Assembly (NCBI RefSeq): GCF_002742335.1
Contig: NZ_MDGR01000007.1
Coordinates: 4,468,501-4,532,500 of the forward strand
From: Reichenbachiella sp. 5M10
GTDB taxonomy: Bacteria > Bacteroidota > Bacteroidia > Cytophagales > Cyclobacteriaceae
Length of the DNA: 64,000 nt
Direction: 5' to 3'
Shown: positions 28,264-36,436 of the stretch, piece by piece
Layout of the letters: each line of letters opens with the position of its first letter
How positions within the stretch are numbered: the stretch's first letter is position 1
Position numbers and translations under genes: made by a program
The notes under the pieces: model-generated
What the model saw: the letters and a program-made list of their open reading frames with translations, nothing else
What the model was told of the DNA's origin: nothing
Databases searched by the model: none

Positions 28264-28375
28264 AATTATTAGTTTTAAATTCAAGGCAAAACCTTGTCCT
28301 CACAGATTATCGAGCATTTAAGTTTGGGTGGAGAGGACAGCAATTTGCACAGTCATTTTCAATCAACAGCGGCCA

Positions 28376-30502
28376 ATGTCTAACGTTATCTTTCAAAGAA
28401 GTACTTACATCCTCGTAGCGGTATTTTCTCTCATTCTTGTTTCTTGGTTGGTTGCAGACCTCTACTTGTATACGCAAAGTAGAGAGGAGGCCAGTGTGAA
28501 AATTGGATTTGAATCCAATGAGCACATTACGTTGGCATTGGACTCAGTGTTGCAAGACGTCATCAAAGTCACACATGAATTAGGGGAAGTATTGGAGACC
28601 TATGACCTGACTAGGGATCAGCTGATTGGGGTGATCGAAGCAGAAAGTCAGCAGTTTGACTTCATCCTCGGGATCACCGTGGCATATCAACCGTATATGT
28701 TTGACGATTCGTTGGAGCTATTTGCTCCGTACTATGACAAGCGTCAACGTTCGTTGATAGACATTGCGGATGTCTACAACTATACAGACTCTACATTGAA
28801 TACGGCACTATGGTATACGAAAGTCGTCGAATCTCAAAAGCCCGCTTGGTCAGAACCCTATTTTGCGCAAGGAGCACAGCAGATCGTATCAGACTATGGT
28901 GTACCCATCTATGCGACTGTCGACGGGGAGAGGGTGGTGAAAGGGACGGTGACGTTGACTATCGCACTTGAAAGCCTAAAGGATGCGCTCAATTCTATCT
29001 CGATAGGTACGACAGGGTACTCGTTTTTGGCTTCCAAACAAGGAACCATCATCGCACACCCTACACCGAAATTCATTCTCAATGTCAGTCTGCAAGATAT
29101 CGGCGAAGCGTTTGATATCAAAGAAACCTCAGACCGTATCCTTGGTGAGAAGGAGGGGTATATGGAATACAAGAGTATCTATACCAATACAGATTCTTAT
29201 TTGTTTTTTCAGACGATTCCTTCGACCCAGTGGAAATGTATGGTGGTCTTTGCAACCAATGACCTGCTCGGCAGCCCTGTCAAGATGGGTAATAAAATTG
29301 TAAACATTGCCTTGGCGACCACCTTGCTCATCTTGGGATGGGTAGCGGTACTGATTCGAATCTCTACCACGACCAATAGAAAGCTATGGATCATGTCTTC
29401 TCTCACAGCCGTGCTGATCCTCGCCAACATAGGAGTTATCTGGTGGCTCAATATTAAGAAGGGCTATGCTGCAGAACAGAATCACTCGGTCAAAATTATG
29501 AATCAAACGGAGTTGTTTCGCTATGTACTAGACGAAAATACGCGCCTTTTGCAATTGGGCTATGATCCATACATGACGATCAATACGGGGGTGTTTATCG
29601 AGGAGATGGCTATTAGGGATTCTTATAGTTTGAGTGTCAAGGGGCGTGTATGGCAGAAGTGGCCTATGGGCTTAGATGAGGAGTTTGTTCCGGATTTTCA
29701 ATTCGTTCAGGAGTCTCCGATTTGGGGAACAAAGAAGACTTTGATTTCGAAAATTGCCAATGAGGAAATGGGGGAAAATTATTACCTCTGGCAGTTTAGC
29801 ACGACGATCAAGTTGGCCCTAAAGTACAACAAGTACCCCTTTGATTCGCGGGATGTTAATATTGAGCTGGCTTACCCGGATTTTCAATCCAACATTTGGC
29901 TGATTCCTGATTTGGAAGGATACAAGGTACTGAACCCGTCCGCCTACCCTGGGATCAACAAGGAGATATATTTCCCAAAGGCAGAGCTGCAATCCACGTT
30001 TTTCTCTTTTGAGAGGCTGAATTATCAGACCGTATTTGGCAACACCATGTACAACGGGGATGAGGAGTACCCTGTGATGGAGTTTAACGTGCAGCTCAAA
30101 CGTAGATTCCTCAATGCTTTTGTGATCAACATCATCCCGATCTTTGTGGTAGCTTCGATGATCTTTTTGATTTTCTATAGTAACTCGAAGCGTAAGGATA
30201 GCAATACGGGCGTAAGCATGATGGGAGTGGTACAGAGTTGTGCGGGTTTTTTCTTCGTGCTACTCGTGGCGCATATTGATTTGAGGAGAAGATTGTCTAC
30301 ACCAGAAATCTCCTACATGGAGACCTTTTATTTCACGATGTACATCATGATTGGTTTGTTGGCAGTCAATGTCGTGGCATTTGCACAAACCAAGGACAAC
30401 AGGATATTGCAATACGAAGACAACTTGATTGTCAAATTGGCTTACTGGCCTCTATTGTTGGGGTCGTGGTTGATCATTTCGTTGGCTACTTTTTACAACT
30501 AG
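28376..30502 (+). CDS. Double-Cache sensor fused to a pentameric ligand-gated ion channel, copy 1
   Basis: 708 residues from the ATG at 28376; a GTG 16 codons earlier is ignored because the chosen start sits right before helix 1. Layout: TM 11-31; periplasmic double-Cache domain about 35-300 (AYQPYMFDDSLELFAPYYD, PAWSEPYF, GTTGYSFLASKQGTIIAHP), like sensors of SpoIIE-type phosphatases; TM 308-328; TM 337-358; a 210-residue beta domain about 362-574; then four helices at about 578-601, 612-634, 648-670 and 688-706. The beta domain has the Cys-loop-family landmark KYPFDSRDVNI (486-496) but no Cys pair, as in prokaryotic channels. LKRRFLNAFVINIIP leads into M1. Family assignment is by pattern; ligand and ion selectivity are unknown. 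Confidence 0.8.
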   Translation: MSNVIFQRSTYILVAVFSLILVSWLVADLYLYTQSREEASVKIGFESNEHITLALDSVLQDVIKVTHELGEVLETYDLTRDQLIGVIEAESQQFDFILGITVAYQPYMFDDSLELFAPYYDKRQRSLIDIADVYNYTDSTLNTALWYTKVVESQKPAWSEPYFAQGAQQIVSDYGVPIYATVDGERVVKGTVTLTIALESLKDALNSISIGTTGYSFLASKQGTIIAHPTPKFILNVSLQDIGEAFDIKETSDRILGEKEGYMEYKSIYTNTDSYLFFQTIPSTQWKCMVVFATNDLLGSPVKMGNKIVNIALATTLLILGWVAVLIRISTTTNRKLWIMSSLTAVLILANIGVIWWLNIKKGYAAEQNHSVKIMNQTELFRYVLDENTRLLQLGYDPYMTINTGVFIEEMAIRDSYSLSVKGRVWQKWPMGLDEEFVPDFQFVQESPIWGTKKTLISKIANEEMGENYYLWQFSTTIKLALKYNKYPFDSRDVNIELAYPDFQSNIWLIPDLEGYKVLNPSAYPGINKEIYFPKAELQSTFFSFERLNYQTVFGNTMYNGDEEYPVMEFNVQLKRRFLNAFVINIIPIFVVASMIFLIFYSNSKRKDSNTGVSMMGVVQSCAGFFFVLLVAHIDLRRRLSTPEISYMETFYFTMYIMIGLLAVNVVAFAQTKDNRILQYEDNLIVKLAYWPLLLGSWLIISLATFYN

Positions 30503-30508
30503 AATAAT

Positions 30509-32614
30509 ATGAAGTTTGTCCAGAAGAAGTACTTAATACCTGTTGCGGGTTTTTTTCTATTGTTGACTCTTTACTTCGTCTACGATTATCACACCTATAC
30601 CTCCAATCGCAAAGAGGTAAGTATGAGAGAAGGGACGGAAGCCATTGAAGAGGTCAAATCTGAGTTGGATGAAGTCTTGGGAGATATCGTGGCACGTGCC
30701 AACGAGATTGTCGAAATTTTGGCTTCTCAAGAATTGACCAAGGAAGAAGTAGAGGAGTTGGTGACTAGAGAAAGCCGAACGAATTATTACCTCCAAGGAG
30801 TGACGGTAGCCTATGACAAATATGGGTTTGATGAAGAGACGGAGTTGTTCGCACCCTTTTATGATAAAAAAAAGGGACACCTCATAACTCTTCAAGACCG
30901 GTACGATTACACCATAGATTCTGTTGTGTCCAACGAATGGTTTGTAGATCCTTTGGTCAAGGCTGGTCCAAATTGGACACAGCCATACATGGCAACAGCT
31001 GCCAACTTGGTGGTAGCAGATTATGGAGTGCCTTTTTATGCCAAGGGAAACCCTAGGCCGAGAGGAGTAGTTTCGATGACTTTGGATTTGAAAAAAATCG
31101 ACAATAAGATTGATTCACTGGTGCTACTCAAAGCGGGCACTGGGATGCTGGTATCGACCAAAGGACGATTCATCGCTCACCCATTTCCTGAGTACATACT
31201 CGAGCAGACGATAGAGGATATCGCTGAGGAGCTCTCCATCGATGAAGATATTGATAGTGTACTTGAGCAGCACAGTGGGTATTTGTCTTTTACTCGTGAT
31301 TCAGGCCTTGGGGGGTATGCGTTTTTTTCTACGATTGAGCACTCGGGGTGGAAGCCCATCATAGTGTTCAATACGGCGGAGCTATTGGGCAACCCTTACA
31401 AATTACAGCAAAAAATCGTATGGATATGTTTGAGTACTTCCGTGCTGCTTTTCATGCTGTTTTTGATTTTGATGAAAATCGATCATAGTACGGCGAAAAA
31501 GCTATGGTTGTCGTCGATTGTTTTGTCACTATTGATTGTCATCAATATTGTCGTGATGTGGAGCATCAATTTCAAGATGAACTTTGCGAATACAAAAGGC
31601 AAAGAAATCGTCATCGAAGGACGGACGCAGTTGGAGTCTTTTATCAGAAAGGAAAGCCATAAGAATAGGCAATTGGGGCTTAGTAATTTTATCCCTGTAG
31701 AAACTGGTATTTTCTTGGAGGAATTTCAGTTTCTAGATGCATATACGATTAGTATTCGTGGCGAACTTTGGCAAAAATGGCCCAAGCAGTTGAGTAGGTT
31801 TTATGAGCCTGGGTTTAGGTTTCCACAAGAGGCGCTGACTGGACTCAAAAAAATCGAGAAGACCGGGGTGAAAAGGACCAAGAAGTACGATAGGCACACT
31901 TGGAATTTTCGATTAAACATCAAAATGCCCTTGGACTACTCGAAATACCCCTTTGATGCACAAGACATCAACATAGAAGTCATGTATCCGGATGTGGACT
32001 CGGGGATCATCTTGGTACCAGATGTGGACGAGTACATGGAGCTGTCGCCGTACAGCATGCCAGGGATCAATCAGGAAATTTACTTTAGGGATTTTGAACT
32101 CATCGCATCGCGGTTTTCTTTCGATATTGTCAATTTTAACAAACGATTTGGCCACAAGAAATACTCTGGACTCAACTCCTACCCCATCATGAATTTCAGC
32201 GTCAGTCTGAAACGCAGATTGCTCAACGTGATGGTGACCAATATCATTCCGATCTTGGTGGTGTCTTCGATGATATTCTTAATTTTTTATAGCACGACCA
32301 ACAACAAGGAAGATAAATCTGGAGTGAGCATGATGGGAGTGGTACAGAGTTGTGCAGGTTTTTTCTTTGTGCTGTTGGTGGCTCATATCGATTTGAGAAG
32401 AAGGCTTACTACGCCTGAGTTGACTTATATTGAGACGTTTTATCTGACGATGTACGTGATCATGGCTTTGTTGGCAATCAACGTGGTGACATTTACCAAA
32501 ACGGACAAGTACAAGTTCTTACATTATGAGGACAACCTTTTGGTCAAGATATCCTATTGGCCCGTGTTGTTGTTTGCTTGGATGTTAATCACCTTGCTTA
32601 TATTCTACTTTTAG
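30509..32614 (+). CDS. Double-Cache sensor fused to a pentameric ligand-gated ion channel, copy 2
   Basis: 701-residue paralogue with the same layout: TM about 9-27; Cache domain about 33-295 (APFYDKKKGHL, NWTQPYM, TGMLVSTKGRFIAHP); TM 302-322; TM 332-352; channel-type extracellular domain about 360-568 with KYPFDAQDINI (479-489); M1 571-594; M2 605-628; M3 641-663; M4 682-700. Residues 605-633 are identical to residues 612-640 of copy 1, although the DNA differs at synonymous positions. The start lies six bases after the stop of copy 1, so both should be made together and could form mixed pentamers. The sensor halves differ more than the channel halves. Confidence 0.8.
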   Translation: MKFVQKKYLIPVAGFFLLLTLYFVYDYHTYTSNRKEVSMREGTEAIEEVKSELDEVLGDIVARANEIVEILASQELTKEEVEELVTRESRTNYYLQGVTVAYDKYGFDEETELFAPFYDKKKGHLITLQDRYDYTIDSVVSNEWFVDPLVKAGPNWTQPYMATAANLVVADYGVPFYAKGNPRPRGVVSMTLDLKKIDNKIDSLVLLKAGTGMLVSTKGRFIAHPFPEYILEQTIEDIAEELSIDEDIDSVLEQHSGYLSFTRDSGLGGYAFFSTIEHSGWKPIIVFNTAELLGNPYKLQQKIVWICLSTSVLLFMLFLILMKIDHSTAKKLWLSSIVLSLLIVINIVVMWSINFKMNFANTKGKEIVIEGRTQLESFIRKESHKNRQLGLSNFIPVETGIFLEEFQFLDAYTISIRGELWQKWPKQLSRFYEPGFRFPQEALTGLKKIEKTGVKRTKKYDRHTWNFRLNIKMPLDYSKYPFDAQDINIEVMYPDVDSGIILVPDVDEYMELSPYSMPGINQEIYFRDFELIASRFSFDIVNFNKRFGHKKYSGLNSYPIMNFSVSLKRRLLNVMVTNIIPILVVSSMIFLIFYSTTNNKEDKSGVSMMGVVQSCAGFFFVLLVAHIDLRRRLTTPELTYIETFYLTMYVIMALLAINVVTFTKTDKYKFLHYEDNLLVKISYWPVLLFAWMLITLLIFYF

Positions 32615-32619
32615 GACGG

Positions 32620-33708
32620 ATGAAAAAAACGCTACTATTACCTTTTTTTCTTGTCTCACTCACGTTGTTTGGACAGGACAAGAAGGACTATGAACTGAAG
32701 ATTGGTGGAGCGATTCGTGCCAATTATTTTGTCAAATCTTGGGTGGACCAGAACAAGAAGACCGGGGGAGAATTGGCTTACGATATGGTGCGCTTTGATG
32801 TGGATGCCAATTACAAAAATGTCATCGCATCGGGTCAAATTCGCTTTTACAGTCAGGCCTATGGAGGGATATTGATCCATCATGCTTACATGGGGTATCA
32901 GTTTGATGATTACTCTCAAGTATTGGTGGGGATACATCAGGTGCCATTTGGTATCCAAACCTATGCTTCCAACAACTGGTTCTTCAATATCAATTACTAC
33001 GTCGGGCTAGAGGATGATTATGACATGGGGCTCAAGTATGTTTATCAAAAGGATAAGTGGGGCTTTGCAGCGGCGTTTTACAAGAACAGCGAGATGCCTG
33101 CAGACAATTTTTCACGTTATTCTTATGACATCACGGGGACGCAAAATGAAGTCAACCAAGGTAACCTCAAGCTAACCTACACAGTGGCCAATATCGAATG
33201 GGGTGCTTCCATGGAGTTGGGACAGCTCGAAGAAGTAGCCACAGGGGATCTAGGGACACATTCGGCAGGAGCACTGCATGTACACGGCCGTTTTGGGCGA
33301 TTTGATGTCAAGTTGCAAGCCACCTATTTTCACATGTCGCCGAAAGGACCAGAGAGCAACTATGTTTATATGTCGGCCTATGGCGCGGAGTACGAGGTGG
33401 CCAGTGCGGCTAGATCCTATACGATAGGCTTCATGTATAGCTTGCCGTTGGAGTGGGGACCTATCGCATCCTTGGATTTTTACAATGATTTTGGCTATAT
33501 AGACAAGACAGAGCAGGGTTATTCGGATTCCGTGATGAATGTGCTAGGCGTAGGTGTCAATATGGGCAAAATGTACAGTTATGTGGATTGGGCGATGGGC
33601 AAGAACCATCCATGGCTAGGTCCAGACTGGACGAGTGCATTGAGTGTAGGGGATGCCGATGCAGAGTGGCATACCCGGTTCAATATCAACTTTGGATATT
33701 ATTTCTAG
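32620..33708 (+). CDS. Outer-membrane porin (OprO/P-like beta-barrel)
   Basis: 362 residues from the ATG at 32620, five bases after the second channel gene. The start is fixed by the signal peptide MKKTLLLPFFLVSLTLFGQ. The mature part is alternating amphipathic strands rich in Tyr, Phe and Gly (IGGAIRANYFV, ASGQIRFYSQAYGG, QVLVGIHQVPFG, DYDMGLKYVYQ) and ends in Phe, as outer-membrane barrels do. The opening strands and VGIHQVPFG resemble phosphate-selective-type porins. As third gene of the operon it may supply the channels' ligand or ions to the periplasm; this is inferred from position. Its 3' end overlaps the convergent K+ channel gene by 23 bases. Confidence 0.8.
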   Translation: MKKTLLLPFFLVSLTLFGQDKKDYELKIGGAIRANYFVKSWVDQNKKTGGELAYDMVRFDVDANYKNVIASGQIRFYSQAYGGILIHHAYMGYQFDDYSQVLVGIHQVPFGIQTYASNNWFFNINYYVGLEDDYDMGLKYVYQKDKWGFAAAFYKNSEMPADNFSRYSYDITGTQNEVNQGNLKLTYTVANIEWGASMELGQLEEVATGDLGTHSAGALHVHGRFGRFDVKLQATYFHMSPKGPESNYVYMSAYGAEYEVASAARSYTIGFMYSLPLEWGPIASLDFYNDFGYIDKTEQGYSDSVMNVLGVGVNMGKMYSYVDWAMGKNHPWLGPDWTSALSVGDADAEWHTRFNINFGYYF

Positions 33709-34525
33709 ACAAATGATTGCCACAGTTGAGGCAGTAGTTGGATTGAGTTGGCAGGTTGTTGGTGCCACAATGTATGCAAGTGAGAGCATTTCTTTTTTTC
33801 TCCCCACGGATCATTTCATTGGTGACGATGCCTGTCGGTACAGCTAGGATGGCATAGCCGATGATCATCAGTGCGGAAGCCAGGGTTTGTCCCATGAGAG
33901 TCACAGGGGCTATGTCGCCATAGCCTACCGTGGTGATGGTGACGATCGACCAGTAGATACTTTTGGGGATACTCGTGAAGCCGTTTTGTCCCCCTTCGAT
34001 CATATACATCATGGTGCCGATGATCACTACGATACAGAGCACAGTGCCGAGGAAAACAATGATTTTGTGTCGGCTGTTGTAGAGTGCGGAACCGAGCTGC
34101 TCTGCTCCTCCCATAAAGTGCGTCAATTTCAATACCCGAAAGACTCGAATCAGTCGAATTGCACGAATCACAGAAAGTGCACGTGTCCCGTCGATGAAAA
34201 TACCGAGGTAGGTGGGAATCAAGGAGAGCAAGTCGATGATACCCATGAAACTAAAGATGTACTTGATGGGTTGGGGTGAGGAGACAATCCTCGCGATGTA
34301 CTCTAACGAAAAGAGAAGGGTGAAAATCCATTCGACAATCTTGAGCTCATGATCGTACTTTGCATCGATCTCGTGGATGCTCTCTAGCATCACTTCGACG
34401 ATACTGGCGAGGATGATGACCAGCAGGATCACATCAAAAAGTTTGCCCATGGTCGTCTCGTATCCAAAGATGACTTCATGGATTTTTTGTTGCCATTTTT
34501 TGAGATGTGTGACGTCTTTTTTCAT
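33686..34525 (-). CDS. Voltage-gated K+ channel with C-terminal zinc ribbon
   Basis: 279 residues from the ATG at 34525 (an ATG 12 codons upstream gives a poor start). It has six transmembrane helices. S4 is charged every third residue (Arg121, 124, 127, 130 and Lys133). The pore loop carries the K+ filter TVGYGD (199-204) and S6 contains AVPTG. After S6 the tail holds four cysteines, C250/C253 and C265/C268 (CIHCG, CLNCG), a zinc-ribbon pattern. It is an inner-membrane K+-selective channel, likely opened by depolarisation. It converges with the porin of the Cache-channel operon, overlapping by 23 bases, and lies downstream of an orphan binding-protein gene. Confidence 0.92.
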   Translation of the reverse strand: MKKDVTHLKKWQQKIHEVIFGYETTMGKLFDVILLVIILASIVEVMLESIHEIDAKYDHELKIVEWIFTLLFSLEYIARIVSSPQPIKYIFSFMGIIDLLSLIPTYLGIFIDGTRALSVIRAIRLIRVFRVLKLTHFMGGAEQLGSALYNSRHKIIVFLGTVLCIVVIIGTMMYMIEGGQNGFTSIPKSIYWSIVTITTVGYGDIAPVTLMGQTLASALMIIGYAILAVPTGIVTNEMIRGEKKRNALTCIHCGTNNLPTQSNYCLNCGNHLSRNNIQS

Positions 34526-34543
34526 GGAATGAGGAGAGGTTGA

Positions 34544-34583
34544 AACAAAGCAAGCTACCAATAGAAATACTGATAGCTTGCTT
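34544..34583 (-). terminator. Stem-loop between solute-binding protein and K+ channel genes
   Basis: A perfect 10-bp inverted repeat (34548-34557 with 34574-34583) with a 16-base loop is followed on the minus strand by a T-rich stretch. It could end or attenuate the binding-protein transcript before the K+ channel gene. Confidence 0.5.
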
Positions 34584-34604: not shown

Positions 34605-35408
34605 TTATTCTACTTGTAGCAACCACATTCCGTTCTCCAACCATTTTTGGTTGAGCTCTTCGAAGATGCCTGCAAGTTGAAGTGAGTTCATGTAGTTCTG
34701 TACCAAGTTTAGAAACAACGGGTCGCCTTGTGGTAGAGCAGCACCGATAGGTTCGATGGTCAGTGGCTCTTCGAGGGAGACGATGCCTTCGTGTCCATAC
34801 TTCAGTGCAGAGACCAAGGTAAACGGGTAGTCTGCTACTACGGCTTTCACTACGTCGTTGCGTAGCATGTCGATTGCTTCGTCATAGCTGCTGACAGGAG
34901 CGATGTCTGCATTGGTCATGTAGGCTTTCGCGAAGATTTCGCTGGTAGAGCCTGCGAGTACAGCGATGCGCATCTTGGGGTTCATATTGATGTCTTCGGT
35001 AGATTCCGATTTAGATAGCAATTTGGACTTGGTCAAAATGGATTTTCCAGAGACCATGTATGGGCCTACGAAAGCGACACGCATGTTTCGCTCGGGGGTG
35101 ATAGTCATCCCAGACATGACCAAGTCAACCTCTCCGTCTTCCAAGGCAGGAATCAGATCGTTGAAGTCCATCAAGACGAGCTTGAGCTCTACGTTGAGAG
35201 ACTGCGCAAGCATGGTCGCTAGATCTATTTCATACCCGATGTAGTTGCCGCTTTTTGATTTCATCGAAAATGGAGGCTGGTTGCCGGTTATGCCCACGCG
35301 GAGTTCGCCTTTTTTGATGATTTGCTTTAATGTGGCTTGCGCCTGTGCATTGGAAGCCATGACGAGAATCACGAGCAACGCGGATAAAATCAATTTGATC
35401 TGTTTCAT
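34605..35408 (-). CDS. Family-3 extracellular solute-binding protein (orphan)
   Basis: 267 residues. The signal peptide (about 1-24) ends at NAQAQA. The mature protein follows the family-3 amino-acid-binding layout: GELRVGITGNQPPFS at the start, YEIDLATMLAQSLNVELKLV, then DLVMSGMTITPERNMRVAFVGPY, with the Arg expected to hold a substrate carboxylate. Later come VLAGSTSEIFAK and AVVADYPFT. It lacks a lipobox, so it should be free in the periplasm. No ABC permease or ATPase gene is present on either side. Its neighbours are a K+ channel and, further on, the Cache-channel operon, which suggests sensing rather than uptake. Confidence 0.87.
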   Translation of the reverse strand: MKQIKLILSALLVILVMASNAQAQATLKQIIKKGELRVGITGNQPPFSMKSKSGNYIGYEIDLATMLAQSLNVELKLVLMDFNDLIPALEDGEVDLVMSGMTITPERNMRVAFVGPYMVSGKSILTKSKLLSKSESTEDINMNPKMRIAVLAGSTSEIFAKAYMTNADIAPVSSYDEAIDMLRNDVVKAVVADYPFTLVSALKYGHEGIVSLEEPLTIEPIGAALPQGDPLFLNLVQNYMNSLQLAGIFEELNQKWLENGMWLLQVE

Positions 35409-35455: not shown

Positions 35456-36436
35456 CTAAAGTTTTAATATTTTAAACTCTACTCTCCTATTCTTTTGCCT
35501 CCCTTCGGATGTTGTATTGCTTTCTATCGGGGCATCTTCTCCGTATCCTTTTGCGGTGAAGCGGTATTTTTTAATCCCTTTGTCTTCCAGATACATGGCG
35601 ACAGCTTTGGCCCTGTTTTCAGAGAGAATTTGATTGTTGGTTTGCGAGCCAACATTGTCCGTATGCCCAGCGATTTCGATTTCGGCTTTGGGGTGTTGCC
35701 ACAAAAATTCCAAAAGCATGTCTAGTTCTTCGTAAGAAGCGGGTTTGAGTACGTATTTGGCCGTTTCGAAATAGATGTTGTTGAGCTGGAAAATTTGTCC
35801 TTCTCGGGCATTGGAGAGTTCGTGACTCAGGTTGGTTGCTTCGCAAGCTGTGAATGTGACATCATCAAGAGCAAAGTGCGCAGAGATGCATTCGGTGTTG
35901 ACGTTTCGGATGGCTAGTTTGACTTCCGTATTGTTTCTCGATTTCCAAGTGACTGTGTATTTTCTCCACTCACAGAGGACACTATCTAGTTCTAACTTTT
36001 TTCCCTCTGCCTTGTCATTGATATATACCTCCAAGATCGCAGGAGAGTAGCGTAGCAAGGGAGCCACCCAAAAACTAAAAGTGTAGGTAGTGTTTGGGCT
36101 GATGTCAGTGACGGTTTGACTCCATGCATTGTCATTGGGGGACTCTGACCCGTTGTATACGAGCATGATGCCGCCGTTGGAGCTGTGGTCTCTGCATGCA
36201 GGATATAGACCGAGTGCATATTGTGGGTTGGTGACTGTGGCATAGCTCCCGCCGAGGAGTAGGGATTCTCCTCCTGGCTCTCGGGTGTACTGATAGTCTG
36301 ACTGGAACTCTTGGTTCCCTTTACAAAAATCTGAGTTTTTGACTAGGTTCTCTCCGTCTGATTGTCCTTCGGGACATTGAGCCCATAGACTGATCGTTAC
36401 CATGAGGAGAAGTAGAATAGAAATGCTGCTTTTCAT
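35456..36436 (-). CDS. OmpA-family protein with N-terminal carbohydrate-binding-like domain
   Basis: 326 residues with a signal peptide (about 1-19, ending LWAQ). Residues about 28-200 form a beta-sandwich-like domain (NLVKNSDFCKGN, NTTYTFSFWVAP, HFALDDVTFT) of the type often called CBM or 'LamG-like' in Bacteroidota. The C-terminal OmpA domain (about 215-326) has IYFETAKYVLKPASYEELD, EIEIAGHTDNVGS and ENRAKAVAMYL, with the Asp and Arg that contact peptidoglycan. A cell-envelope anchor is likely. It lies 47 bases upstream of the binding-protein gene on the same strand. Confidence 0.87.
   Translation of the reverse strand: MKSSISILLLLMVTISLWAQCPEGQSDGENLVKNSDFCKGNQEFQSDYQYTREPGGESLLLGGSYATVTNPQYALGLYPACRDHSSNGGIMLVYNGSESPNDNAWSQTVTDISPNTTYTFSFWVAPLLRYSPAILEVYINDKAEGKKLELDSVLCEWRKYTVTWKSRNNTEVKLAIRNVNTECISAHFALDDVTFTACEATNLSHELSNAREGQIFQLNNIYFETAKYVLKPASYEELDMLLEFLWQHPKAEIEIAGHTDNVGSQTNNQILSENRAKAVAMYLEDKGIKKYRFTAKGYGEDAPIESNTTSEGRQKNRRVEFKILKL

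Follow-up and report, generated by a model that had tools for sequence, protein, structure and literature searches.

The open reading frame at positions 28,376 to 30,502 of the window, that is, the whole stretch of 64,000 nucleotides of Reichenbachiella sp. 5M10 DNA that was analysed, encodes, as judged from sequence and structure prediction, a subunit of a bacterial channel of the Cys-loop/Pro-loop superfamily that carries a membrane-anchored double Cache domain (copy A). A second fusion of this kind (copy B), which was overlooked in the earlier note, starts 6 nt past the stop codon of copy A. Fusions of Cache to pentameric ligand-gated ion channels (pLGICs) are already known since 2004, and copies A and B are well-conserved further members. 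The main interest of the pair lies in its testability above its novelty. The two genes and the segments of copy A are as follows.

28376..30502, plus strand: copy A, Cache-pLGIC fusion, 708 aa in a single uninterrupted frame
28406..28462, plus strand: TM1, residues 11-29 (hydropathy; start of model helix 2-75)
28490..29275, plus strand: double Cache sensor domain, residues ~39-300 (dCache_1, 62.3 bits; folds 3li9/3lib)
29276..29461, plus strand: TM2-short basic loop-TM3 hairpin, residues 301-362 (model helices 301-326 and 333-362; hydropathy)
29489..30103, plus strand: pLGIC ligand-binding domain (LBD), residues 372-576 (GLIC profile match; fold)
29831..29845, plus strand: Pro-loop landmark KYPFD, residues 486-490 (P488, F489 and D490 invariant in 26/26 rows)
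30107..30181, plus strand: M1, residues 578-602, with invariant P588 (alignment; model)
30182..30217, plus strand: M1-M2 loop, residues 603-614, longer than that of GLIC (model; GLIC profile alignments)
30218..30295, plus strand: M2 pore helix, residues 615-640, the same in copies A and B (model; comparison of copies)
30314..30382, plus strand: M3, residues 647-669 (model)
30425..30496, plus strand: M4, residues 684-707 (model)
30509..32614, plus strand: copy B, 701 aa, a further Cache-pLGIC fusion of the same layout (43% identity with copy A)

Copy A runs from an ATG at 28376 to a stop codon at 30500-30502, and an alternative GTG start at 28328 would add 16 residues. Its domain order is TM1, double Cache, TM2, a short basic loop, TM3, pLGIC LBD and M1-M4. 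Hydropathy gives seven membrane segments, three upstream of the beta domain (residues 11-29, 308-326 and 337-355) and four downstream of it (582-600, 613-631, 651-669 and 684-702). An AlphaFold model of the single chain, built from an alignment of copy A with 25 homologues (26 rows; mean pLDDT 79.6, pTM 0.68), shows a helix at 2-75, the Cache region, helices at 301-326 and 333-362, a further helix with a beta-rich domain at approximately 372-576, and helices at 578-602, 615-640, 647-669 and 684-707. This layout bears out the earlier note, which had read from the letters a TM-double Cache-TM first half, one further helix, a beta domain and four channel helices with a proline in M1. By sequence and prediction the two sensor parts, Cache and LBD, both face the periplasm, and the loop between TM2 and TM3 holds three Lys/Arg and no Asp/Glu, in agreement with the self-consistent topology with a basic loop that had been proposed.

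The Cache half is well supported by domain models. Copy A passes the Pfam dCache_1 cut-off (6.5e-17; 62.3 bits over 45) as well as that of MCP-like_PDC_1 (46.6 bits, cut-off 27), while copy B stays below the former (30.5 bits) and reaches 52 bits with the latter. The closest solved relatives of this half are the histidine-kinase sensors 3lib and 3li8 (3.2e-11 and 2.9e-10), and a Foldseek search with the copy A model returned 3li9 as the best dCache structure (2.2e-13); the double Cache fold thus sits between two TM helices in copy A. The residues that mark amino-acid- and amine-binding members (dCache_1AA and dCache_1AM, motif as given in the available part of PMC10104139, which also classes 3LIB of Methanosarcina mazei with amine-binding domains) are largely missing from the 12 Cache-containing Cytophagales rows, in a comparison that covers part of the dCache_1AM positions. 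The column equivalent to PctA D173 and PctD D235 holds Thr in 10 of the 12 and Val or Ile in the other two, and the column equivalent to PctA R126 holds Ala, Asn or Ser in all 12; the motif Trp is kept in 12/12 and the Tyr in 9/12. A canonical amino acid or amine is accordingly an improbable ligand for the Cache, and the weak keeping of the amino-acid/amine dCache_1 residues is possibly a new point.

For the channel half, evidence from single sequences is weak and profiles are clearer. Copies A and B match the NCBIfam model LGIC_1 at 4.3e-4 and 1.3e-8, respectively, both far under its curated cut-off of 500 bits; at E<=0.01 this model matches 9 of the 26 rows, and it has no match in G001 or G007, genomes with the A type only. 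The alpha-7 nicotinic acetylcholine receptor is matched at 0.0016 by copy B and at 0.027 by copy A. A profile of 17 family rows alone finds GLIC at 1.7e-4, and the same rows with three other Bacteroidota pLGICs find it at 2.9e-13 (profile positions 26-328 of 331), a gain that is explained in part by the added rows, of which one is a PBP-fused and two are simple pLGICs. In Foldseek the copy A model has GLIC as its best channel match (4.5e-13; TM score 0.75 by target length), so that residues 362-706 are predicted to adopt the pLGIC fold on which the earlier note had staked its reading. The same note had named dCache_1 and the Neur_chan models as checks: the former matched above its cut-off, whereas Pfam Neur_chan gave no match for copies A and B at E<=1 and none across the 26 rows at E<=0.01. 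However, the simple pLGICs L068 and L069 likewise fall just short of the Neur_chan cut-offs, indicating that such a match is no requirement for prokaryotic members. A whole-genome search with PF02931 (Neur_chan_LBD) also found nothing, a null that carries no information because its 14 control genomes were equally silent.

pLGICs have an extracellular domain of about 200 residues and four membrane helices, M1-M4, with a proline in M1. The family shows a beta-sandwich LBD of about 200 residues and then four TM helices, with the Pro-loop Pro and Asp, a basic residue (R576) before M1 and a proline (P588) in M1; P488, F489, D490, R576, P588 and R637 are invariant in all 26 rows. The landmark KYPFD lies exactly where it had been reported, in an LBD without a Cys pair. 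Relative to GLIC the family has approximately 7-9 extra residues between M1 and M3, which the model places in the M1-M2 loop (residues 605-612 with pLDDT <50), and M2 numbering shifts with their placement. The charges at the inner mouth are unlike among A, B and the Chlorobiaceae-like rows. Weak matches of Pfam SLAC1 and DUF2339 fall on the TM part, below their cut-offs.

The fusion is widely retained. The Cache region is present in 24 of the 25 aligned homologues, and dCache_1 at E<=0.01 matches 22 of the 26 rows, a Cache-less form being among the four that do not match. A search of relatives matched 9 of 59 genomes, the own genome included: seven of the eight Reichenbachiella, G051 and G037; G006 is the sole genus genome of the eight in which no Cache-pLGIC was found. 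In the phylum sample at least 44 of 395 genomes matched, many by the Cache half only, and at least 14 besides the own genome reach the channel end (query end >=690), all of them in family f36, where loci were assigned and aligned for 13 of the 14; these phylum counts are lower bounds, since two candidates at most were scored per genome. The bacteriochlorophyll protein FmoA, which we take to be a marker of Chlorobiaceae, was found in all five f36 genomes tested (in G132 over model positions 1-202 of 355), and f36 is therefore read as Chlorobiaceae. Chlorobiaceae-like genomes also encode free-standing Cache proteins roughly 650 aa long (L017, L021, L028, L029 and L032-L034), which align to copy A solely across the Cache half. 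A contig scan with copy B yielded 13 stretches that matched a pattern and none that was confirmed, and a scan with alignment A3 yielded three loci, two from Reichenbachiella and one from Treponema (90 residues of the Cache part).

Comparison of the tandem copies revealed that all 26 residues of M2 are identical, with identical codons at 17 of them and different codons at 9, while outside the channel TM part codons are identical at 91 of 210 identical residues. The codon differences argue that the identity of M2 is not the product of a very recent gene conversion, and leave room for an older one. The two genes could be co-translated and their products may co-assemble as heteropentamers; in scans for promoters and terminators 14 sites (12.3 in shuffles) and 4 sites (5.3 in shuffles) were found, respectively. 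A search of the own genome with copy B as query recovered both tandem copies and L003 (E 0.087), the last of which was dropped.

The channel genes follow an S41 protease gene on the minus strand and precede a further set of genes, in the order S41 protease (minus), A (plus), B (plus) and then:

~32620-33708, plus strand: porin-like gene, directly 3' of copy B (Porin_O_P, 23.2 bits, cut-off 20.9)
33686-34561, minus strand: Ion_trans K-channel gene, six TM, TTVGYGD filter (Pfam; sequence)
34605..35408, minus strand: orphan PBP-II (SBP_bac_3) gene, co-occurring with the A type; putative link to the channel
35456..36436, minus strand: OmpA-family gene, same co-occurrence as PBP-II; putative link to the channel

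Among the neighbourhoods fetched, the porin-like gene lies near the channel genes in two of six other genus genomes and the K-channel gene adjoins them in six of six. The latter is present in all eight genus genomes (66-100% identity; the G002 match crosses one stop codon) and its position was rejected as evidence of a partnership with the Cache-pLGIC because the gene is kept in G006, which is without this protein. Its product also has a C-terminal CxxC...CxxC stretch with weak zinc-ribbon matches.

On the other hand, the PBP-II and OmpA-family genes follow the A type. In a tree of 12 channel proteins, whose outgroup is a long branch flagged by the tool, copies from G000, G001, G007 and G002 form an A clade (97/98) and seven others a B clade (99/98). 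Among the eight genus genomes PBP-II orthologues (62-100% identity) occur in precisely G000, G001, G002 and G007; a paralogue, about 50% identical, occurs elsewhere in six genomes and was treated separately, as both genes are present in four. The OmpA-family gene, at E<=1e-30, has the same pattern (4/8), so that A type, PBP-II and OmpA are jointly present in four genomes and jointly absent from four, whereas the intervening K-channel gene is in all eight. If the eight genomes were independent, which they are not, the odds of such a 4/4 split would be 1 in 70, and the adjacent PBP-II and OmpA genes count as one unit. In the K-channel tree, whose remaining branches are unresolved, G002 clusters with G003 and G005 (100/100), a grouping that implies at least two separate joint changes if this gene follows the species tree. 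The permease type that would serve such a binding protein is the polar amino-acid ABC permease TIGR01726, and it is absent from all four A-type genomes (controls positive in 12/14). No PBP-II orthologue was found in the other fusion carriers G051 and G451, or in other carriers of B-type copies, and the neighbours in G051 and G037 showed no common partner among the 10 of 19 other ORFs of >=120 aa that were scanned. The co-occurrence of the A clade with orphan PBP-II and OmpA-family genes is possibly a new point; it fits and extends the PBP-II neighbourhoods recorded in the available part of Tasneem et al. 2004 (PMC549065).

With regard to function, the earlier note's proposal that ligand binding to the Cache gates the pore directly is reasonable, and we consider with moderate confidence that the Cache gates or modulates the pore. 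Five subunits would assemble around M2, and a small periplasmic solute, possibly brought by the neighbouring orphan PBP-II protein, would bind the Cache and/or the LBD. The TM2-TM3 hairpin would then relay movement of the Cache to the LBD start, or to adjacent channel helices, and the gating equilibrium would shift, the output being ion flux instead of a phosphorelay. Two routes to the pore can be envisaged: the signal could pass from TM2-TM3 into the N-terminal LBD helix, or it could act laterally, by packing of helices on the channel bundle. The modest conservation of TM2-TM3 compared with the LBD favours packing over specific contacts. The overall reading as a Cache-fused channel of this kind is supported by the dCache_1 match, the GLIC similarity by profile and fold, the chain in 24/25 rows and the TM hairpin, and further by the A/B identity of M2, the conservation of M1-M3, the joint A-type/PBP-II pattern in 8/8 and the lack of TIGR01726 in 4/4. 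Against it count the missing Neur_chan match, the LGIC_1 scores below cut-off, the poor conservation of TM2-TM3 as the supposed relay, the Cache-less relative, and the absence of a PBP-II orthologue from G051, G451 and B-type carriers. A bolder version, in which a periplasmic relay dedicated to the A-type channel would have PBP-II (perhaps with OmpA) capture a solute and hand it to the Cache, which would drive an A/B heteropentamer via the hairpin as the electrical output, appears decidedly doubtful; if true, chemosensory input would be converted directly to ion flux.

It has also to be considered that the channel might be gated by its own LBD alone, like GLIC and ELIC, with the Cache gathering ligand or anchoring or clustering the protein, a reading that we consider unlikely but serious. 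The LBD is complete and, among A orthologues, better conserved (85, 84 and 67% identity) than the Cache (73, 78 and 55%), TM2-TM3 (61, 68 and 47%) being the least or next-to-least conserved large segment; dN/dS values for such comparisons are rough, synonymous sites being saturated in most of them. A natural form of 475 residues without the Cache region (L011, L083) exists in G037 and G476, two of the 11 genomes of their taxonomic family, indicating that the channel does not always require the Cache. This form retains hydrophobic stretches at the TM1, TM2 and TM3 positions, of which a hydropathy threshold called TM1 and TM3 and not TM2. Its model (pLDDT 71.8, residues 1-63 mostly <50) has helices at 58-103 and 108-129 and a pLGIC, with glycine and GABA-A receptors and GLIC as best Foldseek matches. 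The N-terminal membrane part therefore seems to belong with the channel, sensor or not, and the presence of these helices in a Cache-less relative is possibly a new point. Gating by the LBD alone would also accord with the role in 'preliminary concentration or sensing' that the available text of Tasneem et al. 2004 suggests for the fused domains (PMC549065). However, the Cache part has lasted in distant families and is tied to the LBD via the TM hairpin, which speaks against this reading.

A receptor with the pLGIC fold that transmits its signal through conformational change, with little or no conduction, is a very improbable reading of the protein. Its Phe-rich M2 and an M1-M2 stretch longer than that of GLIC by some 7-9 residues would suit such a role, but M2 is the best-conserved segment in homologues from the genus (88-100% identical with copy A), as a pore would be, M1-M3 are strongly conserved between A orthologues, and there is no cytoplasmic signalling domain. 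The idea that the ORF joins two unrelated genes by chance or through misassembly is already refuted by the homologues, as the same chain, free of internal stops, recurs in seven of the eight genus genomes and in more distant families. Bacterial pLGICs are models for nerve receptors, and a Cache-fused channel would offer a test of whether a chemoreceptor sensor can govern a pore and of what bacterial pLGICs sense, with the tandem copies, the natural Cache-less relative and the co-occurring orphan binding protein as ready test material.

Comparison with known systems shows where the pair belongs. The available part of Tasneem et al. 2004 gives fusions of MCP-N and Cache domains to the receptor module, from Methanosarcina, Cytophaga and Microbulbifer, as the third of its architectural themes, with three Cytophaga versions of which one is simple (PMC549065). 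Like copy A, those fusions have a Cache-type sensor N-terminal to a complete LBD and four-TM channel, and the hairpin between Cache and LBD is unmentioned in that portion of the text. Genome G451 is very probably C. hutchinsonii, since its three pLGICs, L056 (Cache-fused), L076 (weakly PBP-like N-terminus) and L068 (simple), agree with the versions in that paper. L056 covers family model positions 8-706 of 706 (692.7 bits; dCache_1 6.2e-17) and has the full-length order TM1-dCache-TM2-TM3-LBD-M1-M4. The 2004 description and this full-length homologue, hairpin included, establish the kind of fusion as known and overturn the earlier note's suggestion that no Cache-TM-TM-pLGIC chain was known; through L056 copy A is homologous to the Cytophaga form and belongs to the MCP-N/Cache-fused prokaryotic channels. 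It is approximately 30% identical to the Cytophaga form, and differs in that the window has two tandem copies with PBP-II and OmpA neighbours. Another type of pLGIC N-terminus, that of L076 and of L077 (G051), has a weak PBP likeness (Peripla_BP_6, E 0.0038, under cut-off). None of the open-licence literature matches listed was an experimental study devoted to a Cache-fused pLGIC, and in the available part of a 2016 Cache census VWA_N and VGCC_alpha2 are the only ion-channel entries (PMC4822843).

GLIC and the simple prokaryotic pLGICs share with copy A the LBD and M1-M4 fold, the Pro-loop and the M1 proline, beyond which copy A has the dCache, three TM helices and the extra M1-M3 residues. 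DeCLIC has, to our knowledge, no TM helices between its N-terminal domain (NTD) and its extracellular domain. Like copy A, it is a pLGIC to which a periplasmic NTD of two lobes has been added, and according to the available part of a 2025 paper no other pLGIC has an NTD that is even partly characterised; its lobes resemble calcium-binding and other regulatory domains, whereas that of copy A is a Cache (PMC12664993). Finally, dCache_1 chemoreceptors and histidine kinases such as PctA and Methanosarcina 3LIB share the TM-dCache-TM layout and fold with copy A, although the PctA-type ligand Asp is replaced in the Cytophagales rows as described above, and their output is a kinase or MCP domain where that of copy A is a channel.
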